In this document: in pieces, positions 14 through 59,139 of the stretch
Layout of the letters: every line of letters begins with the position of its first letter
How positions within the stretch are numbered: the first letter of the stretch is position 1
Assembly: GCA_963920765.1 (NCBI GenBank)
Contig: OY987242.1
Span: forward strand, 25,878,002-25,942,001
Reading direction: 5' to 3'
Length of the DNA stretch: 64,000 nt
From: Ulota crispa
Lineage: Eukaryota; Streptophyta; Bryopsida; Orthotrichales; Orthotrichaceae
Program-made: the position numbers and the translations under genes
Notes under the pieces: generated by a model
What the model was told of the DNA's origin: nothing
What the model saw: only the letters and a program-made list of their open reading frames with translations
Databases searched by the model: none

Positions 14-927
14 CCCCTAAAGGACCAAGCAAAGTTTTCACCAAAAACTCTTCAAAATTGTCATTTTTAGAGCATCAATCAAATTTGAAAACAAAAAACA
101 ATTTTATGCGTATGTGACTGTAGGATCTTGTAAAAGAATGGTTTTAGAAGATGTGGAAAAAATTTCAGATTTTTTCACCACATGGATTGGAAGTTAGAAT
201 GGTTTGAATATTCAAAAATGTCTTGTGAAAAATCAGGCAGCTACCCTTCAGAAGGTGAAATTCCTAAGAAAAAAGGCCATGTGGGTGGTGCTTCTCCAAA
301 CTCCTTATTCCATCTAAGTAAAGTACATGTCAAAAAAGTTTCAAATCATTTGGAGTTGTATAACATATGGAAAAAAATTAGTAAGTAAAAAGAAGTAGAG
401 AATGATTAAAAATACTAAATTGTTAAGAATTTAATCATGGAAATGAAAAATGCCAATCCCAATGGTCATATTGTTGTCAAAAACAATCTTCATCCTTTGG
501 GTTTGTTTTTTTTCCAAAATGTTGAAAATTGAGTAAAATAAAGGACTTCAAAGTTTATTTTGGAGTAGAGAAACATAACTGCCCGCAAACAAAAAATCCT
601 CATAACTTTCATCTCGTTGATCCAAATTGAATGATTTGAAGCTTCCTACGTTCACATGAACCTCCTAAACCAATTTAAAATTTTAGTTTTTGAAAAAAGT
701 GTATTTTGAAAATCTACCCAAGCTGCCCGCCAAACGTAAAAAAGAACATATTACGCCATAACTTTTTACTCATAATTCCAAATATCATGAAATTTAGTGC
801 ATATGAAAGATAAACCTTGTCCCCACATTCTAATAAAATTTCAGCCGAAAATATGAAAAGCTCCAATCACAAGTACATGCCCGAAATTGCTATGTTTCTA
901 AAAAAAGGGTGTCTGGTCCTTTAGGGG
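14..927. mobile_element. TTAA-flanked piggyBac-like non-autonomous element (copy P1)
   Basis: The element begins CCCCTAAAGGACCAAGC and ends with the inverted form GGTCCTTTAGGGG; TTAA flanks both sides (10-13 and 928-931). It is 914 bp long with no credible coding region. Its interior shares the block around 'CCCGCAAAC' with copies P5, P10 and P11. TTAA duplication with CCC-starting termini is typical of the piggyBac superfamily; assignment is by termini and target only. Confidence 0.8.
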
Positions 928-931
928 TTAA

Positions 932-1365
932 CAACATCTAAATGTGCATGTAGCCAGGTTTGAAATTTCTTTGACAACAAAGCATCCCTCCTTCCTCAAT
1001 TATTTTCTCCTTTACTCACATAAAATGATGAGTGAAGTTTTTGTTTGCAAATAAGTAAATATTGTATAGGGAATTGCTAAACAATCTTCCATGTTGATGC
1101 AACATTCCAAGGTACAAAGTTTGCCGCTGTATGTTGTCTAATTGGCATAAAAATCAAGGGTAAGTTCTTATTGCCATCAAAGGTGCCCCTAATCATAATG
1201 GAAGTGCGCTTGCTCTTGAAAATTAGTGTCAAATATGTTGCATTATATTGCTCATTTGATTTTTGCCAAATTTTGATTTGACAAAACTTGTTCATGTGAC
1301 GCATTTCCAATCTTTTATTGTATGTTCAAGTTTTTTGCTATTTTGGCTTACACAATGAACATTGA
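932..1365. other. AT-rich spacer, nothing recognised
   Basis: Spacer between two TTAA elements. Short open frames here have no recognisable domain and no splice or promoter context. Confidence 0.5.
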
Positions 1366-2255
1366 GCCCTAAACGCCCAAGGCCATTTTTTCTCAAAAAA
1401 CATTCAAAACTACCATTTTCAGTTATGAGATTCCAAGAGAAATGTTTTTCTTTTTTCTACAGATTTAATCATAGGATCTTACATAAGACTTATGCAACAA
1501 GCCATGGTGAAGATTTCATGAGATTTGACCATATGGATTGAGAGATATGATTATTTGAAGTTAGAATATATAGTCTTTTTGACCTTTGCATGCCCAAAAC
1601 TCTCAAACTCCTTTGACCACATGTTATGAATATTATTGGCATGTTGCAAAGAGTTGCCCAACATGCTCTAAATCATGTTAGGCACATTTCTACAAATTTT
1701 TAAGACCAACAAAGACGTGGAACACACCCTATGTGGCCTTGCATTACAAACATGTGCTTGAGATTCACACTGCATTGGGACTTTTTGCAAACCAACTTTT
1801 TGAGACCTAATTTTGAGTTACAATAATCCAAAAGGCAGCTTGAAAAACTTTATCTTTATTGGCAACCACAAAAAAAAAGTTTGAAAAGAAAACCAAACCT
1901 TGAGTAGCTATTGCATTTCAAACGCAAGTGTTTTTTTTATCATAAATAATCATGTATTTATCTAATACACTATTGCTCTAGATGTACTCCAATGAAGGTC
2001 ATGCCTTCATTGATTGCTTATAGAAGTCAATGAAAAATGGTATGCTTAAATTATCCCTTAAATTAAAAAACCCTTAAAACACCAATAACTTTTGAATTGT
2101 AACTCTGACTTCAATAAAAACTATACTCATGCGTAGCCCTTGCGAAAACATGTTTCAAATTAAAAATTCAAAGAAAATGATCAAAAATCCCAACGGCATA
2201 AGCTTGCCCAAAATTCATTTTGTCCCACATAGGAACAATGAGCTTTTCTTAGGGG
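1366..2255. mobile_element. TTAA-flanked piggyBac-like element (P2), left end decayed
   Basis: The left end reads GCCCTAAACGCCCAAGG after a mutated TTGA. The right end is AGGGG followed by TTAA (2256-2259). Just inside the right end is a 'TTTGTCCCACATAGG' block like those inside the right ends of P5 and P13. No coding potential was seen. Confidence 0.6.
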
Positions 2256-2259
2256 TTAA

Positions 2260-3339
2260 CCCGTGAGCACCTAGGCCCTTTTCACCAAAATTAGGGTTTT
2301 TGGAGATCAACAACTTTGATGCATTGTATCTAAGTCAATTGGATGATCCACAAAAAGTGATCATTGAAAATAGTGAAACACCTACAGTAGTCCCTGGTTA
2401 ACATGAAAGCATTAAGACAAAATATCTTTTCATCTTACAGAAGCATTCATTGTAGCAAAACTCACCATGCCAAAAAGGAAAGCCATGCTTCTAGGGCCAG
2501 CGTAATGGTAAAGGCAAATTTCTCTTACGTAGACAGGTTTTGTTCATAAAGCAGCCCCTGGACATTAATGCAAGAGGTGTTTTTTTCTTATGGAAACATT
2601 TTTTCTTACCCAAGCAAAGAACACGTGTTCCTGGCCTCATTGGGACAAGGACATTCATGTTAGGCAAGCATTTTTGTTACATGGATTAATCCTATGGAGG
2701 CACCACTGTACTTAGAAAATGGCTTGCAAATTTTGGGAACAATTGAGTGTGGGAGATGGGTGATATAACATTTGATCAAACAACATGTGATGACAAAATC
2801 TCAATTTTTGGCTGGTAGTTGCTTTATATTGATGCTTACAAAATTCTATAAGCCCCTCATTCTTCTCATTTTTTGGGAGTAGCAAGATTAGATGTGAATG
2901 CACACATTGTAAATTATTGAAGATTGCACTTCTTTTTATGTCAAGTTTTAGGGCTTCAAGTTGCTTTTGCACAAAAAACAATGATCATCACAATTAGTGA
3001 TGGTTGCCATAATAAGGGTTTAGAACATGCTTGAATTCTTACCAACAACTTTCCCGCTACCATAAAGCACACACAAGGAAGGTTGCGAGGGATATTGACT
3101 GGTTGCAGCTTGTAACACGCTATTTGCCACCATGCCCCATATGGTGTTTCACCCAATCAAATCTCTTGCAGCACTTGTACAACATTTGACTTTTGTCGCC
3201 ATTACTCCACTGACATGTATACCTCAAATGCCTTCATAATTGTTGTTTATAGCAAGATCAAAAAATTAGATTTGATTCTTCAAATAAGCATTTGAAATCC
3301 CTAGTGACAAGATCTCGTCGTCGCTGGGGCGCTTAAGGG
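2260..3339. mobile_element. TTAA-flanked piggyBac-like element (P3), abutting P2
   Basis: Starts CCCGTGAGCACC directly after the TTAA that also ends P2, and ends AAGGG followed by TTAA (3340-3343). The interior matches P12 (51624-52377) in opposite orientation, for example the 'CACCAAAATTAGGG' segment near the left end. Open frames on the minus strand (2712-3156) fall in this repeat and resemble no known protein. Confidence 0.65.
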
Positions 3340-3348
3340 TTAATATGG

Positions 3349-3556: not shown

Positions 3557-3756
3557 NNNNNNNNNNNNNNNNNNNNNNNNNNNNNNNNNNNNNNNNNNNN
3601 NNNNNNNNNNNNNNNNNNNNNNNNNNNNNNNNNNNNNNNNNNNNNNNNNNNNNNNNNNNNNNNNNNNNNNNNNNNNNNNNNNNNNNNNNNNNNNNNNNNN
3701 NNNNNNNNNNNNNNNNNNNNNNNNNNNNNNNNNNNNNNNNNNNNNNNNNNNNNNNN
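3557..3756. other. Assembly gap of 200 N
   Basis: Exactly 200 unresolved bases, probably a fixed-size scaffold gap. It sits between two repeats, a common cause of assembly breaks. Confidence 0.95.
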
Positions 3757-3883
3757 CCAATCTAGGATAAGATTTTACATTTGGATTTCCTAAATTTTCA
3801 AAAAAAATCACCTTCTTACTAACCCCCCAAAAGTGGCAGTTTTGAGTGATTTTCACGGAAGAAATGGCTCAGTCCTTTAGGAG
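3757..3883. mobile_element. Terminal part of a TTAA element (P4) after the gap
   Basis: It is nearly the reverse complement of the first ~130 bp of P5 and ends CCTTTAGGAG followed by TTAA (3884-3887). The other end is missing, presumably in the gap. Confidence 0.6.
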
Positions 3884-3887
3884 TTAA

Positions 3888-4331: not shown

Positions 4332-5631
4332 CACCGAATAGTGCATTTAGGTTTCCTTAACCCCTACAGGACGGAGTCATTTTTTCAGTGAAAATCACTC
4401 AAAACTGTCACTTTTGGGGGTCAGTAAGAAGGTGATTTTTTTTGAAAATTTGGGAAACCCAAAAGTAAAATCTTACCCTAGATTGGATTAGGTATTTATG
4501 GAAAAAAAATCAGGTCATTCCAGATGGACATGAGTGAGATATTTACATCTAAAGTGAAAAGAAAAGTTTTTTTCCATGCTGCCCCAAAATTTTAGAAGCC
4601 TTTGACCACTCTTATAACAAAAAAGTTGCTCTATGCAACTTTGCGCTTTATTTTTCCCATGTAGGAGATCAAGTTAGCTATGTGTGGGAGAATTTCCAAA
4701 TCAATTGGAACTATACAACACATGGGAAAAAAACCGTAAGTAAAAAGAAGTAGAGAATGAGCCAAATCACTAAATTGTTAAGAATTTAATTATTAAAATG
4801 AAAAATGCAAACCCCAACGGTCATGATGTTGTGATAAACAATCTACATCCTTTGGTTTTGTTCTTTTTCCAAAATAATAAAAATTGAGTAAAATAAAGGA
4901 CTTCAAAGTTTATTTTAGAGTAGAGATTCCATAACTACCCGCAAACAAAAACTCCTCAAAACTTTCATGTCATTGATTGAAATTGAATGATTCAAAGCTT
5001 CTCACCTATTAAAATATCTAAAGAACCAATTTCAAATTTTAATTTAAAAAAAAATTAATTTTTGAAGAAGTTTTTGGGCTGCCTATGCGAGCAGTCCTCC
5101 CTTGCTTTTTAGATTTTCATGCATAACTTCTTCAATAATTGTTGGAATGAGGAAAAAATTAGATGCCCACTTAGATCTTTGAATTCCCCACCTTCAATTA
5201 AAGTTTCAGAAATCACACAAAGTAGTTTATCCAAAGGTACATGCCCAAACTCCCACCTGTCCCCCAAAGGGACAACGGTCCTTTAGGGGTTAACAATCAG
5301 GTTGCCTTACCTTTGGCAAAGTTACTTCATGACGCACCCTTGGCCACTTGGAGAGGCATGCAACTCTTTATATGCTACGGTAATTATTGGTTTTGTGTTG
5401 CCATCTCAAGATGCTCCTAGTGATGGGGTTTTTCAATTCTTGGTTCAGTGTAAAGTTTCAACTTTCCTTCTCCTTAGTTTAGGCACTTGTTGCTGTGCCC
5501 AACCTCTACTTGCTTCCTCCATTGTTTATCACAATAATTATTGACAAAATTTAATTTAGTCTTGGTAAATATTTAAATGATGCGAAATATCAAGAAATTA
5601 GTATGTGGCAACCTAAATGCACTATTTGGTG
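4332..5631. mobile_element. TA-flanked short TIR element (family D) split by P5
   Basis: The outer ends are CACCGAATAGTGCATTTAGG on the left and its inverted form on the right, each bordered by TA (4330-4331, 5632-5633). The inner parts match the reverse complement of the D units at 60.5-61.8 kb. Removing P5 and one TTAA restores the continuity seen in those units. Confidence 0.75.
4361..5289. mobile_element. TTAA-flanked piggyBac-like element (P5) nested in family D
   Basis: Starts CCCCTACAGGACGG and ends CGGTCCTTTAGGGG; TTAA at 4357-4360 and 5290-5293. The host D sequence elsewhere (61705-61726, read in reverse) has a single TTAA at this point, so the target duplication can be seen directly. 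929 bp, non-coding. Confidence 0.85.
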
Positions 5632-5633
5632 TA

Positions 5634-6695
5634 AAAGATTTAGAATTGTTGAAGCCCACTAAAAATTATGGAATTTGTTCAAAATACCATGGGAAACCTA
5701 CATGCAATCTTAAATTGAACAGCAATACTCTACATATTCTCTAATTTAAAATTATGAATAAACATCATTTGTTCATCAAGTATTTGTGCATTCTTCTAAA
5801 TATGACAAATGGTGTCCTACTTTGAAACACTTTGGGTGGGTTCTAGCTATTTCAATCTATGTATAAAATGCAAGATAAAATATAGAATGGTTAGCAAAAT
5901 GTGTAAGGTAAGGGTCTTACACAAGTGCATTCTAGCGTTTAAGCTACTTGGAACAAGGGCAGAGCTTGAGTAACCAATGGCACAAATGTGAGAATGCACT
6001 TGCATGAGGCCCTTACTCTACCTAAACGTTGCTTGAAAACCTTGACACGTGTGTGTAGGAGTGACATTACACGTTTGAACACAATTCACCAATATCCTGC
6101 ATTACGGATACACAAGGTTACACCATTCCACACTTTTTGTTGATATGTTCACAAGCACAAGGGCAATTGAGGATACAAAGGATTATGTTCAGGCAACTTT
6201 TACGTTCCAAATTGGTTTTTCCAATATTCATATATAAAAAAGAACCCCTCCAAATTAGGGTTTTGGTGAAGCTGCTCACTCTAAAGAGAGAAATTTGCAA
6301 TGTAACTTCCAATGACCAACCAAATGGAGAGAAGGATACATGCGTAAAGTGGTTTACACTAAGATTTTACTTTGAATCAAGTTGTGGCCTTTGTTGATAT
6401 TGCGGACAATTTTTTTGGTATTAATTTAAAAAAATACATATATATATATATATATGTGTCTACATATATATATCTATATATATACATAAAGTGTTGCTTT
6501 AAGTTTTATAAAATATTGTAAATGGTAATGATACAAGTATTAAAAATCATTAATGTAATTTTAATTTTTAATTTTGATTAACTAAAAAAGGGGTATGGCA
6601 AAATTGGTAGACTCTACAAACTTAAATAATTTGAGCATTAGTAAAAGAACTTATTAAATGATACATAAACTTGTTTCTATATAATGAGAACCCAA
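5634..6695. other. AT-rich spacer with a short (TA)n tract
   Basis: No gene seen. A mixed AT microsatellite lies at about 6434-6490. The frames at 6118-6397 are open on both strands without protein resemblance. Confidence 0.5.
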
Positions 6696-6699
6696 TTAA

Positions 6700-7605
6700 C
6701 CCCTAAACGATCATTGTCCATATAGGGGACAAATTGGATTTTGGGCAGGTACATACGGCCTCAAATTTTATCCTAATTTTTTGAAACTTTTTTTGAAGAT
6801 AGAAAACACATTAGCTTTTGGGGAATCTAATTTTTATTCCAATTGATGCCAGAGAGCAAAAGTTATGCCCAAATAAGCACAAATTTGGGGAGAGGGGCAG
6901 CAAAAAAAAATCTCATAAAGACTTGAATTTTTTTTTTCTTATAGATTATATCTTTGTCTACATCTGAGGCTTTTATTCATTCCATTTGGACTAGTTATGA
7001 GAAAGTTATGGACAATCTTGATTTTTGGGCAACTCAAGCATCTTCTTGACAAAATAACTTATAAACTTCATTTTTGAATGCAAGTTTAACATTTTTTCAA
7101 ATTTTTTTTGGAGAGGGTGAAGTTTGCTTTCTAGAACAATCTCACCATTGGGATTATTGCGTTTCAATTCCATTGTAGGGTTATTAGCAATTTAAGTTTT
7201 AGTTCAATCTCATACCTTCTTCTATCTAATGTTTTTTTAAAGAATGAAAATTAAGTATTTTTTTTAAAACTTTTTCCCAAGATTCCCAACTCAACTTCCT
7301 ACCACAAAAAAATAGAATTCCAAACTCTTTGGTGCAAAAATTTTAAGTTAAAAATGTTGAAAGTTAAAAGGTCTAGTCAAGAAAGGTGCAAAAAAAGTTT
7401 TGTTTTACGCTTTATATGCATTCATCTTCCAATCTGTGCTATCAAAGTTTTTGAGTTTTGTATGACACATTCTTATAGTAGTTTAGCACAAGATCTTATA
7501 GTCAGATATGCAAAATGCCTGATTTTTAAACTCTTTTACTCTTTGCCATAGAAGTGGCAATTTTGAGTGTCTTTTGACAAAATAAAGGCCATGGTCCTTT
7601 AGGGG
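6700..7605. mobile_element. TTAA-flanked piggyBac-like element (P6)
   Basis: Starts CCCCTAAACGATCATTGTCC, ends GGTCCTTTAGGGG; TTAA at 6696-6699 and 7606-7609. 906 bp, about the size of P1, P5 and P10. No coding potential. Confidence 0.8.
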
Positions 7606-7609
7606 TTAA

Positions 7610-11842: not shown

Positions 11843-12800
11843 TGATGGTTATGGGTGACAAAGTGATGGTTGTGGATGATTGGTATGACAGTTTTGAATA
11901 CCCATTTCACTACTTAAGAATCAACAAAACTTGTTTTTAGCATCTCTTACACATGGTTTCTACAATTTGAGTGATTTAGCATTTTGAAAAATTTCCATGC
12001 ACAGATGATTATGTGAATAAATTCTCAAACTAAACTAATATTTTTTATTTTCTGTTTCCAATCTAATGATATAATTTTTGCTCTTGTCCAACTACCTTAA
12101 CCATGCTAAAGTGCTCAACCCCTAAATGCCCAAGGCACCCAATTTGGGTGTTTGCAAAACTTTGAAGACGAATAAAATCTTATCAAATCACTATTTTTGG
12201 TATTTTCTTTTGAACACAAGATTTTTTTGAAGTCTATTTTCAACATCAAAAATATGATTTTGAAAATGAATGTTCATGATTTTTCTATTCAAGATTTTGT
12301 ACAAGGGTGTCCACTACAATCTCGAGTTTTCTAGTGTTGGAAGATCTAAAAATGAGCCTCAAATACACTAGAGCTTGGAGAAAAATCCGCATTAGAAATC
12401 CATTAAAAAAAAAATACAAGAGTAGATTTTGAAAACCGTAAATTGGTTGAGGTTAAACATGCAATGACCTTAACCTCATATTTTTTTGATGACCAACTTT
12501 TTAGATTTGACATGTAAAATGAGGATTAGAAAACTTGAAGTCACTTTTGCAGTTTTAACACCCTCATGTTCAAATGTTATAATCTTTCAAACTGTAAGTG
12601 ATACAATTGTTATGTTTTCTTTTTTCATGTAATCTCTAACATGTCAAGTTTAAATTTGTACATTTATAATTTAAAAAAACTATATAAAATTTATGAAAAG
12701 GTTGATTGATTGTTCACTTTCCTGAAAATGCCAAGAAGTTCAAAATGGTCTTAGACATTTAGGGGTTAAACTCACGCTTATGGGGGTGGCTACCTTATAT
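11843..12800. mobile_element. Dispersed repeat family F, copy 2, interrupted by P7
   Basis: The left part (11843-12114) matches 9620-9880 of copy 1. The right end ('CACGCTTATGGGGGTGGC') resumes after P7. Taking P7 out joins the two halves as in copies 1 and 3. Confidence 0.6.
12119..12765. mobile_element. TTAA-flanked piggyBac-like element (P7) nested in family F
   Basis: Starts CCCCTAAATGCCCAAGG after TCAA (mutated TTAA) and ends CATTTAGGGG followed by TTAA (12766-12769). 647 bp, with no protein recognised. Confidence 0.7.
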
Positions 12801-16497: not shown

Positions 16498-16501
16498 TTA
16501 A

Positions 16502-16735
16502 CCCTTGAACGATTGAGTAGCCCTTCTCGACCAATACAATACGGGGTATTTTTCTTGTATTTGAAGTGCATCCACACCTTTTTCACATTTGAGATCAACA
16601 AAGAAGTTAGAATATAGATCAATGTTGTTCTAGTGAGGTAGTCAAGATCCCAAATTAAAACTTTTTGTTGGTAGCAAATGCCAATTATACAGCAGCGTAT
16701 ATACTATGTATTATAGTAGCTCGGTCCTTGAAGGG
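16502..16735. mobile_element. Short TTAA-flanked element (P8)
   Basis: Starts CCCTTGAACGATTGAG and ends GGTCCTTGAAGGG; TTAA at 16498-16501 and 16736-16739. 234 bp, the same length as P9. Confidence 0.6.
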
Positions 16736-16953
16736 TTAAAGAATCACAGATGAGTGGGTTTTGCCTTCCTAGAATTGAGGGAAGTAACTTTGGCTGCAAA
16801 ATTCAAGAAATTTATCATTGTTTCCATAAAGATTCTACATCAATATTAATGAAATTGGGTTGGATATGGTTTTTTCTTGCCTCCTAAAAGTGATTCACCA
16901 AAGAATGCTTCAACACTTTCAACACCTCCCAACAAAGAAAGATCAGAGCTTTA

Positions 16954-20223: not shown

Positions 20224-23200
20224 CTACTCCTCATTACTCTCACTGTACGGGGCAAAAAGGATGGAAGAATTTTGACCACCAAAGCCGAAAGAGTTGGACA
20301 AGGCCACTTTGATATTCAGTCGCTCTTTCTCTGCTCCGACGATCACCTTCATATCCTGCACAATCAAAGAAATATCAAGAAGTGAAACCATAGCAATTTA
20401 CAGATACAAAAGATGTACAGAAGTATGAACAGATTAGTACGCTTTGCAAGTGATCAAAGATGCAGGTTCAAAATAAATGTGCATTTGAGCTCAATAGCCA
20501 GCAGAAAAAGCTAGTGGAGGAGAGTTTACCACAACGCTCTCAGGATTCTCCAGATTAATTGTGGGGTGAACCCAGCCGCTCCTTATGGCCTTCACAAGTA
20601 AGAATTCCAAAAATGAGAGACTGAAGACTGGTCATACCAAAAAGGCAAATTCGCAACCGCAACATTCGAACAAAGGATATTCATGATAATCTCAATTGGC
20701 TTATCATAAACCACGAAGGTAATTGATCTTTAGAGCGGAATCAGATTTGCCCGGTACCTGAATGGTTGCGATAGCTTCAACGGCACCAGAAGCGCCAAGC
20801 AGATGACCAAGCATTGACTTCGTAGAGTTGATTCGCAACTGCAAATATTGGAACAGGACAATAAATGCATGCTTAAGAACGGGCTGTGTGTGAGCAACCC
20901 CAAAAACTGAACAGATTTCAGTCATAATACAAGACCACTCAAATTGCCGAGCAAAAAACATCTTCAATGCAATGTCGTGAACATTACGCTGGACATTTTA
21001 CAATGTATACTCAACCATACATCAAGTAGGGGGCAACGCACTTGTATTATTGCTCAACATGACCTAGGCTTAACAGCCTTGCAACAAGAACATCGCAATC
21101 ATAGTTCTTGTATTTAAGTAGTTTACCTCTGGGTTCTCTCCAAAAGAACGCATAAGAGCTTTATACTCCTGAAGATCACCAGCTTTAGTCGAAGTTGCAT
21201 GGGCATTAACGTAGTTGACCTCATGTCTGCTAACTCCTGCATCTGCAAGAGCCTTCTCTATACAAAGCATGACACCGGCACCTGCAAACATCCATGGCAT
21301 TCAATGAAGAAAATGACCCAAACCCTTCCGTTTCATAGCTACCGACCCTTTACTACAAAAAATTGTGTTTCACCAAAAATAAAAGCATTTATTTGACGCC
21401 ATATTCTACATCTTAAGGTCACAGGCGATCTCTATTGGGTTCTCAATCGAACATATAATCTACAAGGTATATTTTTCAACTTTGTAATTCAAAAAAATCT
21501 GAAGCTTACCTTCAGGATGAGGTTCAGTTGTATGGTAAGCATCACACGAGAAGCTCCCTCCAAGAAATTCGGCATAAATTTCTGCTCCGCGTTTCTGCAC
21601 CCCAGACGAGTGCCAAATTTCAGTGCCCAACTCTGAGCACAATTCTCAAATAAAATGCAGAAGAAAAAATTAAGTAAAATGAATGTGAGCCAGTTTTGCA
21701 TCCCTACCTTGGCGTGTTCCAGCTCCTCCAAAAGAAGAACCCCTGCTCCCTCTCCCATAACAAATCCATCTCGATCCTTCAAGACATCAAGAAACCATCA
21801 GGAACTGAAAGGCTCCACTTTACAAAAACATACTACAGAATTAAATGCCACACAGCAAAAACAATAGCACAGTACGAGACAAGCGTCTCAACGGGCCGAT
21901 ATAAAAGGAAATATATTGGCCTCTTTTTCGCTAGCAACACAACCTAAAGGAAGACAATTGATATTCCTTCATATTGGAGGGAGTGCAAGACAATGATCCT
22001 CCATATAGGTTGTATCATTAGCAAAAAAAGCTGGGTGATATAGTGACATAGCTGACAAGATAACTTGTAATTCCCAAGTTTTGAAGCATCTCTTTGAGGA
22101 AACTTACTGGTTTGGACATTACCTGATTAGAATACCACCAATACTATACGAAGCGACAGATATTATCAGAAACTTAGATAGTCATGTACCTGGTCCCAGG
22201 GACGAGAAGCTTTGGACGGATCATTATTGCGCTGAGACAATGCCCGGCAGGCAACGAAGCCTCCAAGTCCTGTCCACATCATAAAGTGAGATAATCTGTT
22301 CGTAGACTCGCAGAAAGAGTGCCCAGACCTTAAAGAATTAACTTAGGTCCTGCCCAGTATCATTTACAATTTTTACATGACTAAACTGGTTTTTCTGTGC
22401 GATTGTGCCCACATGAGTCAAAAACAACAAAATGACGAATATTGACGTACCGTAAGGCCACACGATCACAATGACAAAACACAAACATGCGGCATTGTGA
22501 ACAATTCCCAATAAGAAATACAGATGACATTAGTACCAGAAGTTTTCTTACCAATTGGGATGACTGCAGCATCCGATCCTCCCGACAACATTATATCCTG
22601 TGCACAAGATTATACTTTTAAACTTAGATGAGGCTTCCTCGAGGAATAGTAAAATACGGTAATAACTGAACCTGCATGACTGTCGCAGCTTAGAGAATAA
22701 CTCTACAAGCACATGCATAATACTATTCGTACGCCGGTAACTCACCGCTTCACCCCTGGTGATATGGTTTGCAGCACTTAATATACAAAAATTGCTTGTT
22801 GCACAAGCTGTAGAAATGGAATAGTTAGGTCCCATCCAACCCTGCAGCGAATAACAGCTTCCTCTTTTAGTAACAGAGAAGGATACACAGCACAGTTATA
22901 CTGAAGATACTATTACCAACATTAATATGGCAGAAAATGCGATGAACAACACAACTTTACAGGTCACAAAACATGACAGAAAAGTAATGAAAAGGTAGAA
23001 TTGTGTGTTTCCAATCTGGACCTATTGGACACCGACAATCACAATTTCATGCTTGTAAGAGAAACGAATTTCAATTAAGCTGTTTTTGGAACGTATGGAA
23101 GGCCAACTCAGAGTCTCTATAAGAAAAGATCAACGTGGGTAAAAACTACAATGTTGTAAGATCTAATGGTGCTTTATGCTCCTATAATGCATATAAGAGC

Positions 23201-25235
23201 ATCAAGTAACATACGATACTGGATATGAAACACAGAAGTTCACTAACCAAGTCCATAGCTAGCATCGCAGACCCCATATTTGTCGTCGCAAATGGTACAC
23301 AAAATGGGTTCATCTTGCGATATGATACCCTTAAAGCCTCGATTGCGTCATTAAAAATCTGCTTCCACAATTGCTGATGTTATGACCACAAAGAGCTCAC
23401 AGGCTCAATGGAACTACCTGCCATGGGAACCCATATGATGCCTGCAACTCCTTGAGCGGCAACATTCATGGCAAACTGTTCTCTGATTTGAGGATCTTAT
23501 CGTCCTCTAATCAAAACCATAATATATCCTAATACGAATTACACAATTTTGAAAACTGAAAATAGCATTGAAGTATAAGGAGATGCATGGAAAGATAAAA
23601 ATACGCTATATTGCAAGCAAGCATAATTTCCAAACTACTTTGAGTTCCCACCTGCTTGCAGGAGCTATAGAAATAAAAATTAGACAAAAGAACTACAACG
23701 GTACCTGCATGCCTCCCATGGCTGACCCAATAAGCACACCGCATCTTGACTTATCCAATCCCTCCCCAATCTCTGTAAGTCCAGCATCGGCTACAGCTTT
23801 TTTCCCGGCAGTGAGCAGATAGAGCATGAATTTGTCCATCCGTCTTTCAAACTTTCTGGCAACCCAGCCTTCTGAGGAAAAGCCTTTAATTTCGCCAGCT
23901 ATTCTCTGCCATACAAAAGCAGGAAAGACGTTGGTATACTAATTTGGAAACTATTGTGATATATTGCGTGAGTGAGATATATACCAACTAAGATCAGAAT
24001 TTATTAAGACTTGCTGACATGTTGCAAGACCTTTCTGAATTGAAACTACTACGTGTGCTTCAATCCTGACAGCATGATCCCCCGAAGTGATATATCAAAC
24101 GAACAACATGAGAATTGTATTTTTGATACCCTTTGAGGACTACAATCAATTTCAGTCCATTGTCAAATAATGCGGAGCTGAAGCTAGCAACCTAAAATTT
24201 ACAAGAGACCCTGAAGTATTGCAACGCAATGTGAGAACAAAAACCAATTGTGTAAAGGTCTTGAATAATATTACCGTTGGAAATTCCTTGCAATCAAAAT
24301 TCTCTATCTCAGAGACACCACTTTTGCCATCCAAGAGGTTGGCATAAAAGGTGTTGGCATCGTGACCAAGACTGGAGACAACGCCCATCCCAGTAACAAC
24401 CACCCTCCTAGGCTTTGTGGCTGTTTTCTTGGACTCGATGGATTCTTTGACTGGTTGTACAGGGTTCGTTGCAACAGAGGAGGCCTTCCCTGTAAAATAT
24501 CACGCAAGTATTAGCAGTAGCATAAAAATTGTGATTTTTTTGCAAATTGGAGGTTTAAGCAAATAAGTAACCAATGGAACCAATCACAACGGTAGAAGAT
24601 TTTGGAATAGTTGTCACTGTAAAACAAAAACCCCTCGTATTGATCTAAAAAGGGCACTTTTCCTGCAAAGGATATTTTCATTTGTGCTAAAGAAGTCTCG
24701 AAATACTATTGCCATGTTATACGATGCAGCTCAGGAGTATTCGAGCTTCACGAGTCGCTAGATACCAAAAGAAGCAAAAGCAAGATACTAGTAAAAAACG
24801 ATAAATAATCGCTAGAAAGAATCCTTCACCTGCTAAAGCTTTCACAGGTCTTCTTACAGATTGCACTGCCCTGGTCTTCAGTGCTGGTAGTCCCGCTCCA
24901 AAAAATGAAACATCTCCAACTAGAAACTCATTCTTGAAGCTTTCAGTTTCGGGGCAACTTTCGAAGGCAAGGTATGAACCAAGACCAGATATGCCGGATC
25001 CACAAGGTGCTCCCATGCACACATTGGAAAACGCACGAGATTGAATATCATCAGTCTTTATTGACCAGCTTGCTCCTGCTAAACGTTTCGAGCTAGCATT
25101 CCTCCTTCGAATCCTCCCTGAGGGGCTTCCAGAAGGTGCGGAGTTCACTGGATCATCTGCAAACCCAGCAACAGCGCTGGACATGCAAGCTGCAAAAAGC
25201 CATGTACAAAGCGGCGAGGCTGCACCGATCGTCAT
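20224..25235 (-). CDS. FAB1: Plastid 3-oxoacyl-[acyl-carrier-protein] synthase II (KAS II)
   Basis: KAS II condenses malonyl-ACP with palmitoyl-ACP in the plastid, committing carbon to C18 fatty acids. Thirteen GT-AG exons on the minus strand read in phase: 25235-24830, 24489-24275, 23905-23705, 23358-23248, 22841-22746, 22597-22552, 22269-22190, 21776-21708, 21594-21510, 21281-21127, 20838-20758, 20589-20530 and 20355-20224 (TAG). Total 578 residues. Residues 1 to about 160 are serine/alanine/arginine-rich, as expected of a plastid transit peptide. The thiolase-fold enzyme starts at [15 protein letters not shown] (163 on). The nucleophile is Cys324 in STACATSN; the catalytic histidines are His464 (NAHATST) and His500 (SMLGHLLGA). 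The block [18 protein letters not shown] and the ending SSILFAPY are typical of plant KAS II rather than KAS I. The start is supported by an in-frame TGA two codons upstream. Oddity: the GFGG loop reads GGQN (Gln563), where plant KAS II usually has His. Confidence 0.93.
23383..23496 (-). other. Exon-like open stretch in KAS II intron 3
   Basis: Minus-strand frame of 38 codons without ATG start (residues such as [20 protein letters not shown]). It has no counterpart in KAS II, where exon 3 (ending GSAMGGMQ) joins exon 4 (starting IFNDAIEA). Perhaps a chance frame or a relic. Confidence 0.2.
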
Positions 25236-28594: not shown

Positions 28595-28681
28595 TAATGC
28601 TTGATGATGAGTGCAATATGAGGGGAAATGAGCTGACGTGGAGGACAAAGTTCAATGAGAAGTTTTCTTTGCATAAATTAA

Positions 28682-28915
28682 CCCGTGAAGGATGTGCCTA
28701 CCAAAAGTGTTGGATGTATTCATACAAGGACTATTTAGTATTCGAATAAATGGCTTTATGGTAAATGCCAAAAATTCCCAAAAAACCCTAGTTGACTGAT
28801 ACTATGTTACAACTTGGCTTAAATTTTACAACTAGTGGGATTCATGTGCTACCCAAATACCCCATCTGTATTCAACATAAGAGAGCGTATACAATACAAC
28901 AACATCCTTTAGGGG
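28682..28915. mobile_element. Short TTAA-flanked element (P9)
   Basis: Starts CCCGTGAAGGATG, ends CATCCTTTAGGGG; TTAA at 28678-28681 and 28916-28919. 234 bp. Confidence 0.7.
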
Positions 28916-28919
28916 TTAA

Positions 28920-40071: not shown

Positions 40072-41233
40072 AACGCTATATTCATTAAATTAGGAAAAAG
40101 AGTACATTTTGGGACTTTTGTAGGATTAAGGTGGTCACCTTAATCCAAGCTCTAGCAATTTTTTTGGTACATGTGCCCTCACCTGAGAAGAGGAATTTGC
40201 GAGGGAAAAAATCTTAATGGCTCATACTAAATTTGATACCTTTGAATCTGGTTTAACCCCTAAAGGACCAAGCCCTTTTTTCAGTGAAAGTTACTGAAAA
40301 TTGCCACTTTTATTTTTGGAAATCCAACTGTAAGATCTTGCCCTAGACTATGGAAGGTAATTGTGGAAAATAAATTAGCTCATTCTCAATGTAGAGGAGT
40401 GAGGTATTGACTTTTGAAGTGAAAAAAAAAAGTTTTTTCCCTGCTGCCCAAAAATTTCAGAAGCCTTTGATTGCTTCTAAATAAATAAAAAAATGCTCTA
40501 CACAAATGTGAGGTTTAATTTTCCCATGTAGAAGACCAAGTTAGGTAAGTGTGGGAGAATTTCCAAATTAATTGGAGGTGTGAATCATATTTTGTAAAAT
40601 CCTGCAATGCTGTAAGGCCATCAAATTTGCATATACACTAGGCAAAATTGGAGGATTTATGTAAAATTGTGAAATGTGAATTACTTTGATCCAAATGACA
40701 AAAACCAAGGAATCTTAGTCTACTACAGCAAGGAAAAAAAAAGTCAAAAAACAAATTCACAAAGAGCACAAATAGTATAGCACCAAAGGCAAAAGGAATG
40801 GAAGTATGGGAGTTCCGTACTTGCCCGCAAACTAAAACTTTTCAATCATAAATTGGAATTGAATGATTCAAAGCTCCCCACATATGAATAAATCTAAAGA
40901 ACCAATTTCAGATTTTTATTTTGAAAAAATATTATTTTTAGAAAAGTTTTTGGCTGCTTGATCTCCACCTTTTTTCAAAAATTCATTCATAACTTCTTCA
41001 ATAAATGTTGGAATGAAGAAGAAATTAGATGCCCACGTAGGTCTTTGAATTCCTCATCTTCCATAAAAGTTTCAAAAAATCATACAAAGGAGTTTAATTG
41101 TAAGTACATGCCCAAAATCCCAATTGTCCCTCGAGGGGACAATTGGTCCTTTAGGGGTTAAGGTGGCTATTTTGGATTAAGGTGAGGTACAAAATGGTAC
41201 CCATCATTTTCCCAATTTAATGGATATGGCGAT
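40072..41233. mobile_element. Family C element, AAAG duplication, split by P10
   Basis: Ends AACGCTATATTCATT and AATGGATATGGCGAT. AAAG at 40068-40071 and 41234-41237. Without P10 it is about 257 bp, like other family C copies. It sits inside the transposase relic. Confidence 0.75.
40257..41157. mobile_element. TTAA-flanked piggyBac-like element (P10) nested in family C
   Basis: Starts CCCCTAAAGGACCAAGCCC and ends TTGGTCCTTTAGGGG; TTAA at 40253-40256 and 41158-41161. The paralogous family C copy at 56003-56258 has TTGA at the matching point and no insertion. 901 bp. Confidence 0.85.
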
Positions 41234-43799
41234 AAAGTCTTTGCCTTCTTAGAAGTATTCAATTGTGTGGAATTCAAAGAAAGATCATTGCTTGGTTGTA
41301 ACCATTCCTTGTGCATAACCACAATTGCCCCACCAAGCACATTTTCTCCAAGCCTGCATGGTATAAATCATACTTTGTGTAAATTCTATTCCAAGTATTG
41401 GGATAATGACAAATTCTATTAGTTACATATCTTCCTACTAATAATAACTAGTAGTGAATATATCAAAAGGTTGTGATTAGTAAACTTGCTTTTTCCAAGG
41501 TGGTTGTTTTTCGATTGACATTATCATCAACAAATTTTGTGCATGTTTCTAATTCAATTTTTCTCAAGGCTTGTAATCTCCAGTTCTGTTTCACTATTTG
41601 TACGGTTGCAGCTCTCTTGTTGCTTGCACGATATGCAAGCTTCAAATGTGTAATATGCATGTGTTCATAGATGTTGGTACTGTATTCCCAAAGAAGACTA
41701 GATCTTTGGATGCTTGAACTGAAATGGGTTGGCAATGTTAAAATCAAACTATTAATAGGGTCCAAATGTTGACTTGAATTGCCTTATGACTCTGATAAGA
41801 AAAAAAAATAGTAACCAATATTAGAAATTTTCAAGTAAAATATTGAATAATTTAGACTTTGATAATACGACTACATTTTTTTTCATTGTTCAAGGCAAGT
41901 TTTAAAATAGAATAAAAAGATAATATAGGAAGTTTGCTTTTACCTTGTCATCAATTCATCCATGGAAATTACTGAGCTTTTGGTATGGGCAAGGCTTTGA
42001 CTTGCCACCATATACCACTTGAGGAATAAGACAAAACATTGAATCACAGGTTCTTCATATAGCCTAATTAAACACAAGACTATGACTTGCAGAATGATTT
42101 GAATGAATACATAAATATACAATTTAAAGTAAAAAAAACATAAAAATCTCAACCAATTCAAACCATATTGACAAAACAAAATTAAAAAAGTAGATTTGCA
42201 CTTGCATAACTACTATATGCTCAAAGGCTGCAAAATTGGCGTTGGAACTAAAATAGCTACCCTTGTTCACTTCTTGGAATCATGTATCCAGAAAAGCGTG
42301 CACCATTTTTTATTACAAAGAGTCTCTTGTCCAATCCCTTCATGTTCCTTGAACCATGAGGCATCACTTGTAGGCAATTCAAAAGTGTCTTGAATATGCC
42401 AGTGTTAGATTGGTGAAGAACATCCACATGGATGGCTTGATATGGATTGCCCTAGCACATTGCAAAAAAAAGATCACATTGACTTGGCAACATTAATCAG
42501 TGATGATTCCTTGAAAAAGTCATAAAATAAGGCAAATGCTACAAATTAAGGCAAAGTATACTTACAAGTACTAGATGCAAAGATGATGCTCTTGATAAAG
42601 CCTCTACTTAATTTTGAGGTAGTGACAAGCATGTCCTAGATTTGTAAGTCCTCTCCATTGAAGCCTTTGTTCAAATAAGATTGTTGACATCCATAGATGA
42701 CAAATTTTCCTTCTTACAAAGGCAGATACTACATGGCAATTGACAAATATTAATGTCATAAGTACATGTAAGCTTAGTTCCCTCATGATGATAATAGATT
42801 TAGGCATAAAACAATGAAAATACCCTTTGAGGAGTACTAGAAGGGTCTACTAATTGGATACCCTTGTATATACAATTCAAAAAATTAGTAACATCGTTGG
42901 AAGAAGTATTTTAGTAATTATAACATTGCAACTAATAGCATCTCAAAAAAGATTGATACGTACTTAAACTTTACTATAAGCTTTCACTTCTTTCAAAATG
43001 ATTGATAAATTTGCTTGAAAACACTTCAAAACATGCATGTGTGTTGGTTTCCCCTCAACATTAAGAAAATTCAACCAAAATTAATAAAAACAAAACTCTC
43101 TACAATGACAAATATTGAAATAAGACGTGATTTGGATTTGGTTAAGGGACATTCACCTAAATAGCTTAATACTAGAAGAATAGCAATCAATTGAGTTCCA
43201 GTTAATGATCCTTGTTTCTCACATGAGATATTAGCAAGGGACATATAAATAGGATATCCAGCCGCTCTTCTGTCATTTGACAATGAAATTTGGTCATTGT
43301 AAAAGATCAAGCCACCAATAACACAATCCTTGCAATTGACATGTTTTTTCATGGCCAACCACCATTCCCCTGTGTCTGGTGTTGTATAGGTATCAACATG
43401 TGAGGATTTCAATACAAATCCATTTGCATTTGAAGGGGATGAAAACAACTTTGTAAAGACCTCCATAGGATCTTTGTAATGGAGCACAAGTTCCTTAGAG
43501 TTACATCATTTTGTGTCAAGTACATGTCTAACCCATCCCTGTTCAAAATCATTATCAATGTGATGTTAGAACACATTAGACCCTATTAAAAAAAGAGATC
43601 CAATTAAAGTCCAACGCTTTTTCTACAACATTGAGTTCAAAAAATGGTCAAGGAACCTTACATCTTCAATATCATACTTTTCAGTTTCATACTTCTCAAT
43701 ATCTCTCCAACTCCTCAGAGTTACTTCTTTCATCTTGAAAGGTGGATCCAAAAGTGTATGTAGTAGTGCATCCATATCAATTCTTGACAGTTCCGTGGA

Positions 43800-50763: not shown

Positions 50764-50767
50764 TTAA

Positions 50768-51505
50768 CCCCTCAAGGCCCAAGCAGCGTTTTTGGGCTGT
50801 GTAGTGATTTTGGGCAGGCCACTACAAATGGGTTTTGATTTTTTTTTTTTAATTTTATTTTCACACATGAAGTATCCAAGGAGTAGCTTTAAGGCCCAAC
50901 AACTTTCATGACTTTGGACTACATGGCTCAAAAGTTATTGCATGATTTGTTGTTTTCTTTGCTCGTCAAGGCAGCCCGGGCAGCTCAAAAGTTTCTTTAA
51001 AAATTACATTTCAAGTTTTTTGTTTAATTTTAAATTGGTTCTTTAGATCTACATATAGGTGGGAAGTTTTGAATCATTCAATTTCCATTAATGAGATGAA
51101 AGTTATGAGAAGTTTTAGTTTGCGGGTAGGTAGACTCCACACCTACCCGCAAACTAAAACTTCTCATAACTTTCATCTCATTAATGGAAATTGAATGATT
51201 CAAAACTTCCCACCTATATGTAGATCTAAAGAACCAATTTAAAATTAAACAAAAAACTTGAAATGTAATTTTTAAAGAAACTTTTGAGCTGCCCGGGCTG
51301 CATTGACGAGCAAAGAAAACAACAAATCATGCAATAACTTTTGAGCCATGTAGTCCAAAGTCATGAAAGTTGTTGGGCCTTAAAGCTACTCCTTGGGTAC
51401 TTCATGTGTGAAAATAAAATTTTTAAAAAAAAATCAAAACCCATTTGTAGTGGCCTGCCCAAAATCACTACACAGCTAAAAAATTGCTGCTTGGGCCTTG
51501 AGGGG
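50768..51505. mobile_element. TTAA-flanked piggyBac-like hairpin element (P11)
   Basis: Starts CCCCTCAAGGCCCAAGC and ends GCTTGGGCCTTGAGGGG; TTAA at 50764-50767 and 51506-51509. The two halves (about 365 bp each) are nearly perfect inverted copies around 51130 with a short loop (AGACTCCACA). The inner part shares 'CCCGCAAACTAAAACTT' with P1, P5 and P10. Confidence 0.9.
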
Positions 51506-51623
51506 TTAAGCTCTTAACCTTAAACCTATACCAAAACTCATCAATATGCAATTTCTAATCTTTTAAAAAATACATGGGTTTTGGTCAATATTACATGTTA
51601 CTCAAGTGACACCTAAGCCTTAA

Positions 51624-52377
51624 TCCATGAATGCCCAAAAGGACCAAAAGTGTCCTTGCAAGATTTAAAAGCTTGTTTGAGGCACTGCATCTAATTTTTT
51701 GACCTTGCTATAAACTATAATTACAAAGGCATTCAAGTTGTCCATGCCAATGGACTTATGGCAAAGCAAGCCAAATGTCGTACAAGTGCCTCAAGAGATT
51801 TGATTGGGTGAAACACCATACAGGGCGTGGTGGCAAACAACATTTTACAAGTTGTAACCAATCAATAACCCATGCAAGCTTCTTTGAGTGTGTTTGTTGG
51901 TAGCAAGAAATCCATTGGCAAGGGTTCAAACAAGTTCTAAACCCTTTTTGTGGCAACCCTCATCGCTTGTGCCAATCATCATTTTCAATGCATTAGTAGT
52001 TTGAAGCCCTAAAACTTGACATAAAAAGAAGTACAACTTTCAATAATTTGCAAGTGTGCTCATTCACATTTGATCTTGCTACTCACAAAAATTGAGATGA
52101 ATCCCAAGCTTGTAGAATTTTGTAAAAATCATCAAATAACAACTACCTACCAAAAAATGAGATTTTGTTATCACATTTTGCTTGATCAAATGTTATAATC
52201 TCCCATCTCCCATGGTTGATTGTTCCCAAAATTTGGAAGCCATTTTGCAAACAGGTGTTCCACCATTTTCAATGGTCACTTTTTGTGAATCATCCAATTG
52301 GCTAAGATACAATGTATCAAAGTTGTAGGTCTCCCAAAACCCTAATTTTGGTGAAATCGGCATGGACGCTCAGGGAT
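51624..52377. mobile_element. TTAA-flanked piggyBac-like element (P12), reverse relative of P3
   Basis: TTAA at 51620-51623 and 52378-52381 with decayed ends (TCCATGAATGCCC / CGCTCAGGGA). The interior matches P3 in reverse, for example 'CACTTTTTGTGAATCATCCA'. Confidence 0.6.
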
Positions 52378-52381
52378 TAAA

Positions 52382-56590: not shown

Positions 56591-56896
56591 CTAAGATCCG
56601 GACAAAATCGATGGCGGCTCGGTGGGAGCATGTATGCGCTGCTGCTGGTGCTCGTCGCCGTGGGGATTATAAGCGGAGAAGTTGAACACCATGGTGGCCT
56701 TGCGGCGGTTATACCGCGGCCGGGGCCGCAGAATGGACGCGATCTTGGTCATCATCTTCTTCGCCAGCACTCCCGGACTACTACCACCACCACCACGTGC
56801 GAGCTTACTACTAGTCTTGTCGTCCCTGAGTTTGTCCTCCCTGCTCTTGCTAAGCGACACCGCTAGCAGACTGTAGTCCCTCTCCCTGAACGACAT
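56591..56896 (-). CDS. Small single-exon protein, 101 codons, function unknown
   Basis: ATG at 56896, TAG at 56591-56593, in a clearly GC-richer island (56.5-57.3 kb). The predicted product begins MSFRERDYSLLAVSLSKSRE, is basic and serine-rich with a GGGG run near residue 35, and has a central KKMMTKIASIL segment followed by an arginine-rich stretch. It has no signal peptide or membrane helix. The upstream strand is CT-rich, as in plant leaders. Upstream ATGs open short frames, one of 38 codons from about 57092, which argues for leader uORFs or a later start site. No domain recognised. Moderate support from composition and length only. Confidence 0.4.
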   Translation of the reverse strand: MSFRERDYSLLAVSLSKSREDKLRDDKTSSKLARGGGGSSPGVLAKKMMTKIASILRPRPRYNRRKATMVFNFSAYNPHGDEHQQQRIHAPTEPPSILSGS

Positions 56897-56899
56897 CGC

Positions 56900-57310
56900 T
56901 CGTGTCTGTGCACGCCGACCTCCTCTCCGCTCTTCTCCTTGCACTTCAACGACGATCAAGGAGCGCTAGCTAGCTAGCTACAGTCGCACAACCATCCGTG
57001 AGCTCGCACTACATCGATCAGTGCTCGTGCTCCTTGTGAGAGAGACGACCCTAGACACAAATGCCTCCCTCCAGTTTGAGTTTGGGAGTGACATGAGCGA
57101 GAGGCAGAGCTGGCTGGTGTGGTGTGAGAGAGAGAGAGCAGGTTTGTTTGTGATGGACTGGAGTGAGAGCGTTCCAGTGTAGATGCATCGGGCGAGGTGG
57201 TCGTCGTGGAGGCGGAGGAGGGAATCTGCAAGATGCGATGCGGGGTGGCTTTTGTAAACAGGAGTGCAAGCTGTCGACGAGATCTTGGCGGGGTGAAGCA
57301 AGCCCAGGAC
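56900..57310 (-). promoter_or_regulatory. CT-rich leader/promoter of the 101-codon gene
   Basis: On the minus strand 57130-57150 is a (CT)n run, followed by unique GC-richer sequence to the ATG. A 'TAGC' quadruplet repeat lies near 56968-56983. No clear TATA box was identified. Confidence 0.35.
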
Positions 57311-57332
57311 TGTAGGAGTAGGAGGCCGCTTA

Positions 57333-57646
57333 GAGCATCTCCACCGGTTCAGACTCGCTCAAAGTTTTTCATTTGGTTTGGCAAGGCCTGAAGGTTCCCA
57401 ATCTCCACCCATGCTCTTTGAAAAGGTGACCTAACACTCCAAGACACCTTATCAATAAGCAGTTGACCACTTATTTAGGGAAGTAAAGGATAAAGTTCAC
57501 TAAAGCTAAGGTGAATAGTGCATGAATAGTGGTTTGAAGAGTGGCTTGCTAGACCCGCCAAATAAGAGAGTTTGAGCGTGGCCTGAGAGGGGCTTGGCTA
57601 CTTTTCATGCACTTTGAGCAAGCCAGAGCCACTAGAGGAGATGCTC
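57333..57646. mobile_element. Harbinger-like short element, TTA target duplication
   Basis: Ends GAGCATCTCCACCGG and GAGGAGATGCTC are inverted; TTA at 57330-57332 and 57647-57649. 314 bp, immediately upstream of the 101-codon gene region. Confidence 0.75.
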
Positions 57647-57763
57647 TTACTAGAAGAGCTCTATCTGTCATTAAGTTATTACATGGCATGAAGGAGACTT
57701 GGTGTGTTGCACTTGCATATGCATGATTGTGGGACAAGGTAATTACAATGGTAATAAAAATAA

Positions 57764-58076
57764 GGGAAAATTTCTTTGATACCCTTGAAGTTTGCAATAT
57801 TTCCACAAATACCCCTACTTTTTCAGAAATATCGCAAATACCCTCAAGCCAAAAAAATTAGACATTTGTTTTGTTGTGCATGCCACTTTCCTTCTCAATT
57901 TATGTAAACACATAACAAGAACGCAATAATATGCACACAAAGAGAGAAGGAAGTGGCATGCATAACAAAACAAACACCTAAAATTTTTAGTCCAACGGTG
58001 TTTTCTGATATTTCAGAGAAAGCAGGGGTATCTGTGAAAATACTGCAAACAACAGGGGTATCCATGAAATTTTCCC
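57764..58076. mobile_element. Foldback element (family L), copy 3
   Basis: Ends GGGAAAATTTCTTTGATACC and GGTATCCATGAAATTTTCCC; TAA at 57761-57763 and 58077-58079. Internal arms include 'AAGTGGCATGCATAACAAAA' and its partner near 57875. Confidence 0.7.
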
Positions 58077-58234
58077 TAAAAGTAATAATCTGCCTTGTGT
58101 TGGAGTTAATCAGTCCTATCCTTCTTCATAATTCTAAGGTCCCTGAATCCAAATATGAATTGCAAAGTTCCCAAATTCAGTTTTCTGGTGGTAAATATCT
58201 AAACACTTGCATGGTTCTTGCATGTGAAAAATCA

Positions 58235-58622
58235 GAGCCTTTCCACCCTGGCCCTACAATCACCGAGCTGGCACTGCAAATGGGAAGGTGACGAGGCGAG
58301 CTGATTGCCATCAACTTGAACCACCCAGAAATAACCTCTTGGTTAGCCGGAATTCAGAAGTCAACTGTGCAGTTAAATACCGGCAACAACGCCAAGGCCG
58401 GGCGCCATTCGAGAACTGGCGTTCTTCCCTGAAAATGGGCCAGAAAATCTGTGGAGAGGCCGTTTTTGCAGTTTACCGGAGGAAGTGGACGACGTCGAGG
58501 ACGAGGACAGATGATTCTCGTGTTCAGTTCACCGACGCCGGTAATTTGAATAACGGATTGGCGGGTATGGTGGGCTCAGTTTTCTGCACATACGTCGATG
58601 TGGGGCCAGGGCGGAAAAGCTC
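58235..58622. mobile_element. TIR-bounded segment with gene-like GC-rich core
   Basis: Left GAGCCTTTCCACCCTGGCCC is inverted at the right as GGGGCCAGGGCGGAAAAGCT plus C. Between them lies GC-rich sequence with a protein-like frame of about 45 codons (58381-58513, with residues FFPENGPENLWRG, then an acidic end). A related end is at about 59550. It resembles a Pack-type element carrying a captured gene piece; the source gene is not recognised. Confidence 0.4.
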
Positions 58623-58668
58623 AAATTTTTTTTCAAACGAGGGTGATAGTGTGATAATTTGCCCTTAA

Positions 58669-59139
58669 CCCGTAAAGGCTCAAGGACTGTTTTTGGTAAA
58701 ATAGTGATTTTGGGCAACTCACTACAAGTGGATGTTTCATCTTTTTTTTTTGAAAATTTCACACATGATGTATCCAAGGAGTAGTTTTCAAATCCAGCAA
58801 TTTTCATAATCTTTGACTACATGGTTTAAAAGTTATTGCATGATATGTTGTTGTTTTTTTAACTCCGGGCAGCCTGGGCAGCTCTAAAAACTTCTTTAAA
58901 AATTAATTTTAAAGAAGTTTTTTGAGTTGCCCATTCTGCCCGGAGTTCAAAAAAAACAACATATCATGCAATAACTTTTAAACCATGCAGTCAAAAGTTA
59001 TGAAAATTGTTGGACCTTGAAGCTACTCCTTGGATACATCATGTGTGAAATTTTCAAAGAAAAAAGATGAAATGTCTACTTGTAGTGAGTTGTCCAAAAT
59101 CCATTTTGTCCCCCAAAGGGACAAGTGGGCTTTTAGGGG
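58669..59139. mobile_element. TTAA-flanked piggyBac-like hairpin element (P13)
   Basis: Starts CCCGTAAAGGCTCAAGG, ends GGGCTTTTAGGGG; TTAA at 58665-58668 and 59140-59143. It is an inverted repeat centred near 58900 with arms of about 200 bp ('GCATGATATGTTGTTGTTTT' against its complement). The right TTAA overlaps the first bases of the next family C element. Confidence 0.8.

Follow-up and report, generated by a model that had tools for sequence, protein, structure and literature searches.

The window analysed here, a 64,000-nucleotide stretch of contig OY987242.1 (positions 25,878,002 to 25,942,001; C1 in our numbering), contains 13 short elements that lie between TTAA sites and possess short inverted ends, nearly all of which start with CCC. 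We consider these elements to be non-autonomous transposons of the piggyBac superfamily, similar to miniature inverted-repeat transposable elements (MITEs), in the genome of a probable moss (probability about 0.93). A scan for TTAA followed by at least 8 of the 13 bases of the main end, CCCCTAAAGGACC, gave 26 ends in the window, whereas 200 first-order Markov shuffles averaged 4.43 and never exceeded 11. With at least 11 of 13 bases required, 14 ends were found in the window and none across all 200 shuffles (mean 0.00). Inward-facing end pairs spaced 200–1300 bp numbered nine, compared with a shuffle mean of 0.11 and a maximum of 2, which rules out a chance origin of the pairs. These mechanical pairs, together with copies that have a mutated end or were recognised by similarity, make up the total of 13, in agreement with the initial annotation, which had claimed at least 13 copies (P1–P13) with CCC-type termini at TTAA. 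Both ends are present in 11 of them (one with TCAA), the left end is degenerate in another, and the last is cut by a gap. The delimited elements range from 242 to 1088 bp in length, and the ends of degenerate copies start with TCC, CTC or, in one case, GCC. In being short, having inverted ends, lacking a transposase match within the window and bearing ends that occur in thousands, they conform to what is expected of MITEs.

The main end type is seen in the 922-bp non-autonomous element at 10–931, which has TTAACCCCTAAAGGACC at both ends (13/13 each) and a 309-bp core 85% alike to the 937-bp element at 4357–5293 (ends 11/13 and 13/13). Both ends are also 13/13 in the 909-bp element at 40253–41161, and a 914-bp element at 6696–7609 (11/13 and 13/13) is 90.3% alike over 929 bp to the genomic locus L008. 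The gap-cut element is represented by its outer 131 bp at 3757–3887 on the minus strand, with the end TTAACTCCTAAAGGACT at 3887 and the other end in or beyond the N gap at 3557–3756; this piece is 90% alike to 4357–4486 reversed. The element of about 898 bp at 1362–2259 has the degenerate left end (TTGAGCCC, TTGAGCCCTAAACGCCC) and the right end TTAACCCCTAAG at 2259, and resembles L041:6432–5992 (75% over 448 bp). A second end type, CCCGTGAGCACC / CCCTTAAGCGCCCC, bounds the 1088-bp element at 2256–3343, which is 80% alike over 591 bp to 52246–51662, a part of its 761-bp relative in the opposite orientation (51620–52380; ends beginning with TCC, 8/13 each). The 655-bp element at 12115–12769 has TCAACCCCTAAATGCCC (TCAA) on the left and TTAACCCCTAAATGTCT on the right, and is 74% alike over 202 bp to L039:7802–7999. 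Two elements are 242 bp long, one at 16498–16739 (ends 8/13 and 11/13), with partial matches to L043:6617–6746 and 6202–6252, and the other at 28678–28919 (9/13 and 11/13). The 746-bp element at 50764–51509, with the ends CCCCTCAAGGCCC, is an almost perfect inverted repeat from end to end (96.7% alike to its own complement), and the 479-bp element at 58665–59143 (ends 10/13 and 11/13) is mostly an inverted repeat (89% over 416 bp to its own complement). Transcripts of either of these two would form a long hairpin, a possible source of small RNAs.

Outside TTAA, the bases differ from copy to copy. For an empty-site test, 10 of the 13 window elements and five from other loci were taken, the two flanks of each were joined by one TTAA, and the result was compared with the available sequence; a match spanning the joint was obtained for three of the 15. 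The element at 4357–5293 has an uninterrupted relative at 61743–61640 of the window (89.5%), in which TTAA is present once, and a second relative with TCAA. For the element at 40253–41161, L039:6682–6939 (82.8%) has TTAA once, 56235–56006 of the window reads TTGA, and 61166–61320 is degenerate. The third spanning match, for locus L002, has CCAA instead of TTAA. Since two window elements each have one uninterrupted relative with a single intact TTAA, the elements were inserted into TTAA with duplication of the site, as piggyBac transposons are. The earlier proposal that TTAA marks the boundary and that the bases beyond it vary is thus borne out by both the flanks and the empty sites. One TTAA, at 2256–2259, is shared by the neighbouring elements 1362–2259 and 2256–3343. 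Elsewhere in the genome, short elements have been inserted precisely where another piggyBac element ends, at its terminal TTAA (L046:6347–7315, and at position 7360 of the extended L035 locus), and element ends seem to serve as insertion targets.

The same ends are found in large numbers throughout the genome of 274.8 Mb. The exact 17-mer TTAACCCCTAAAGGACC occurs 8,154 times (4,072 + 4,082), with 0 occurrences of the backward control, and allowing up to two mismatches raises the number to 38,725 (19,294 + 19,431) against 40 (23 + 17) for the control, i.e. one end per about 7 kb. Assuming two ends per element of about 0.9 kb, we estimate that there are roughly 19,000 elements occupying some 6% of the genome. 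The window holds 14 ends with up to two mismatches, where 9.0 would be expected from the genome-wide density, so it is an ordinary stretch of the genome and not a special cluster.

A profile search of the assembly with DDE_Tnp_1_7 (PF13843), the piggyBac transposase domain, in which the best candidates were scored, gave 120 matches with a best E-value of 1.3e-73. They are spread over contigs C1 to C11, ten of which are 15.8–41.4 Mb long. None of the 120 falls inside the window, and tblastn with four transposase frames of this genome and four other peptides gave no match there at E 0.1 either, in line with the initial annotation, which saw no transposase for these elements in the window and proposed that the assembly be searched for this domain. 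Two open frames scanned against Pfam matched PF13843 alone (E 6.1e-61 and 8e-60). A 472-residue frame in L046 matches the solved piggyBat transposase 9c0f (3.6e-18) and 6x67 (6.6e-16), which is listed as ‘Transposase’ and which we take to be the piggyBac transposase of T. ni. The alignment with 9c0f pairs TVDE with SLDE, CDN with MDN and GGVDVADQ with KGVDRADQ, and the aligned aspartates of these three motifs are presumably the catalytic residues. Behind the DDE domain lies a cysteine-rich motif, C-x2-C...C-x2-C...C...H, that was found in 10 distinct places including the query (L019 and L042 counting as a single place); some of them have lost cysteines or frames.

A further conserved peptide region, around LRYLFYRHxAKLLGW, is located about 1.3 to 1.7 kb upstream of the DDE domain. 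It is present in eight elements (L039, L043, L042, the copies of L036, L044, L013 and L027, and L046), for instance at L039:1490–1735, L042:6187–6549, L046:1546–1932 and L044:1437–1772, and also in the C6 element described below. In this region, elements of the L039/L042 type resemble those of the L046 type weakly (E 6e-6 to 0.004), and six peptides of the region gave no Pfam match. This region may be part of the transposase protein or a separate gene.

Fifteen PF13843 loci were read with flanks of at least 2 kb (L047 with 2.1 kb on its left side). TTAA/CCC-type ends were recognised on both sides in seven of them and on one side in four (L044, L040, L020 and L035), which does not give a genome-wide rate because the loci were picked for score, few stops or likeness to an earlier one. 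The full-length elements delimited in this way are 5.0–6.8 kb long and are flanked by TTAA on both sides, mutated in some. The elements L039:763–5789 and L043:897–5922 have the ends TTAACCCYTCATYGCC, with the left TTAA of L043 mutated to TTCA, and are 90.5% alike over 5029 bp; the alignment stops at the ends, and the flanks differ. The remaining five are the C7 copy of L036 (5472 bp; ends TTAACCCATTAAGGAC), L046 (5656 bp; right end TTGA), the C6 copy of L027 (5556 bp; ends TTAACCCTCTAAC), the C8 copy of L013 (5586 bp; ends TTAACCCTTTARNGACC) and L048 (6836 bp; ends TTAATCCTCAAGCGCCCC / TTAACCCCTGAGCGCCCAG). In L046, position 7315 had been a candidate for the right end and was rejected: the end there is that of a 970-bp short element, which sits in the terminal TTAA. 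Also discarded were weak end candidates in L041 and L045, which agreed in 10–11 of 16 bases and one of which is a short element's end. On C1, the position lists alone place the PF13843 match at 6989859–6990968 between TTAACCCCTGAGCGCCCAG at 6985160 (plus strand) and TTAACCCCTGAGCACCCAG at 6992863 (minus strand).

One more element was fetched by its ends, outside the 15 loci. The exact end TTAACCCATTAAGGACC is found genome-wide at 23 + 28 places (control 0), and among these 51 places one facing pair encloses a PF13843 match. This element, C6:14250317–14255832 (5516 bp), has exactly TTAACCCATTAAGGACC (17 bases) at both ends, the PF13843 match at 14253071–14254207 and the cysteine-rich motif. Over its full length it can be aligned with the C7 copy of L036 (65.3% over 5641 positions). 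Between another pair of facing TTAACCCATTAAGGACC ends, at 15547480 and 15552887 on C9 (a distance of 5.4 kb), there is no listed PF13843 match. The initial annotation had assigned the short copies to piggyBac and had proposed that longer elements with the same kind of ends around DDE_Tnp_1_7 would confirm this. Seven of the 15 loci and the end-picked C6 element are of that kind, and they support the assignment. Conversely, it had named such ends around a non-piggyBac transposase as grounds for giving the assignment up; none was encountered, which is a weak test, with the loci chosen by PF13843 and a single stretch chosen by its ends.

How closely are the ends in the window related to those of the transposase elements? 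Six window ends were compared with 12 ends of transposase elements, and the agreement with the nearest one was 9, 10, 10, 11, 11 and 11 of 13 bases. The main end, CCCCTAAAGGACC, is 11/13 like those of the C7 and C6 (TTAACCCATTAAGGACC) elements. For the element at 2256–3343, the left end is 10/13 like the L040/L020/L048 lineage, and the right end is 11/13 like the same lineage and equally 11/13 like L044. The end at 16739 agrees in 11/13 with three transposase elements, the end at 50764 in 10/13 with the nearest and the end at 58665 in 9/13. Four end types of transposase elements also occur as short facing pairs, among them TTAACCCCTCACCGCC (spacing of about 650 bp), TTAACCCTTTARNGACC (about 910 bp) and TTAACCCATTAAGGACC (410 bp). 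These pairs suggest that every lineage of transposases has short followers of its own. Transposase genes are bracketed by ends similar to those in the window (9–11 of 13 bases); among the positions listed, none was found between exact CCCCTAAAGGACC ends.

Several observations weigh against the assignment or restrict it. No transposase element with exact CCCCTAAAGGACC/TTAACCCCTAAAGGACC at both ends was found by eye among the 100 positions listed per search, which is a gap rather than a test because 100 of thousands of positions were listed. Four of the 15 extended loci (L041, L042, L045 and L047), in a non-random sample, have no accepted end pair. The cysteine-rich piece matches no Pfam family above the cut-off, the best being zf-HIT at E 0.08. 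Fourteen control genomes contain no PF13843 match, which says little, since the LEAFY family matches none of them either; they probably include no plant and so tell nothing about plants. Most transposase frames carry stops, which restricts any claim of current activity.

The preferred reading, that the short elements belong to piggyBac, would imply the following mechanism. The short elements would keep the ends that a transposase recognises while encoding none themselves; a piggyBac transposase encoded at another locus would excise them at TTAA and reinsert them at other TTAA sites, and the reinsertion would leave TTAA on both sides of the element. We infer that the piggyBac transposases of this genome moved the window copies. 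The short facing pairs of four end types further lead us to infer that there were several lineages of transposases, each mobilising the short elements with corresponding ends.

The best-surviving alternative, which we nevertheless regard as very improbable, is that the window elements are members of a different superfamily with TTAA as target, Kolobok or Sola3, and that the piggyBac transposases of the genome have nothing to do with them. Sola3 also targets and duplicates TTAA. Among the positions listed, as noted above, no autonomous element was found to match the ends of the CCCCTAAAGGACC copies exactly, and Kolobok too leaves TTAA duplications (PMC9587614, which like the papers cited below is used here for the passages available from it, unless its main text is named). 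In the same source, however, Kolobok ends are described as 5′-RR...YY-3′, and Kolobok is rejected because the ends here begin with CCC, or with TCC, CTC or GCC if degenerate, and not with RR. Moreover, the C6 element, which differs from the main window end by two of 13 bases, encodes a piggyBac transposase. Even less probable is mobilisation by a transposase of the Plavaka superfamily, which is known mainly from fungi. A fragment of such a transposase does lie in the window (43071–43484, or up to 43505, minus strand; PF18759, E 6e-8), and a phage tblastn with it gave no match. However, the fragment is outside every listed end pair, and PF13843 is what the sole long element selected through its ends carries; as the other delimited elements were located through PF13843 itself, they are uninformative on this point.

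That the host is a plant, as the initial annotation took it to be, is nearly certain. The DNA-binding domain of LEAFY has one place in the genome, with two exon-like matches at C4:16277526–16279258. Among six matches of the LEAFY SAM domain over the cut-off, the best (1.2e-27) lies beside it at C4:16275377 and the others are far weaker. The DNA-binding part reads KPKMRDYVHCYALHC, and we take site 312 to be H in Arabidopsis and D in mosses. LEAFY types are defined by sites 312, 345 and 387, and the class Bryopsida has type II genes, which are otherwise found in one liverwort (PMC6588583). Judging by this moss-type residue, the host is very probably a moss. Within the window, three exon-like frames at 20704–24499 on the minus strand match beta-ketoacyl synthase families and are spaced as if separated by long introns. 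Contamination by an insect, fungus or protist might be suggested by the rarity of reports of the superfamily's transposases from land plants and by a paper that names five plant superfamilies without piggyBac in the part available (PMC2528002), but it is the least credible alternative of all, given 120 matches on contigs C1 to C11, ten of them 15.8–41.4 Mb long, ends about every 7 kb across the genome, a beta-ketoacyl synthase gene among the elements in the window, and a LEAFY gene on C4, a contig that also bears transposase matches.

The piggyBac superfamily is best known from animals. The moss elements share with its members (piggyBat, 9c0f; 6x67) the TTAA target and its duplication, short inverted ends mostly starting with CCC, and a DDE_Tnp_1_7 domain with three aspartate motifs, and the cysteine-rich motif behind it is a candidate for a further common trait; they differ in the conserved upstream peptide region without a Pfam match. 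Their length of 5.0–6.8 kb also exceeds that of complete bee elements, 2.23–3.52 kb (PMC10140906). According to a published rule, piggyBac ends are inverted, 12–19 bp long, start with CCYT and adjoin TTAA (PMC10175614). Most ends here are likewise short, inverted and start with CC; at position four some have T (CCCTTTA.., CCCTCTA.., CCCTTCA..) and others C, G or A (CCCCT.., CCCGT.., CCCATT..). Compared with piggyBac-like MITEs of animals, such as those of coral (PMC2872659), the elements are alike in being short non-coding copies (the TTAA and piggyBac-type ends of the animal copies being presumed); the differences are the plant host, probably a moss, and the tens of thousands of ends in 275 Mb.

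Land-plant repeats have carried the piggyBac label before. A repeat table of the fern Ceratopteris gives PiggyBac 1,230 copies and 122 kb (PMC6890710), that of the grass Stipa gives one copy (PMC8319324), a list of MITE superfamilies in angiosperms includes PiggyBac (PMC10004981), and piggyBac is said in general terms to occur in plants (PMC10140906). The available passages of the Ceratopteris, Stipa and angiosperm papers present no transposase, ends or insertion sites with the label, whereas the moss case combines all three. No described piggyBac transposase of a moss or other land plant was among the literature matches listed or in the passages available, all of them from open-licence papers, and the word piggyBac is absent from the main text of two reviews on transposons in plants (PMC9033089 and PMC10741241). 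In mechanism the elements follow the known superfamily, and what is notable is the host, the scale and the long elements, so that the earlier remark that abundant short relatives in a plant genome would be notable holds. A transposon group hardly documented in land plants has multiplied in this genome, and a land plant with more than 100 piggyBac transposase matches and tens of thousands of ends alters the prevailing picture. Such a plant lends itself to a natural test of why piggyBac expanded in one lineage of plants but seems uncommon in others, and is a source of plant ends and transposases related to a widely used gene-transfer tool. More tentatively, and with somewhat less than an even chance of being correct in full, these elements may represent a separate, long-diversified piggyBac lineage hosted by mosses, with elements of 5–7 kb, an extra conserved N-terminal domain unknown to Pfam, and several transposase sublineages that differ in end sequence and are each accompanied by a swarm of short elements, all of which would together make up several percent of the genome. 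Such a lineage might be an ancient streptophyte one lost in flowering plants, or an old horizontal arrival.

Two features of the arrangement of the transposase loci may be added. Equal-scoring transposase matches lie in opposite orientation about 14 to 20 kb apart on C2 (36765124/36779670) and C7 (18203169/18223004), and these opposed pairs resemble large inverted duplications. Behind the transposase domain of L041, at 4872–5459, there is a long array of a short tandem repeat with 8-base steps.

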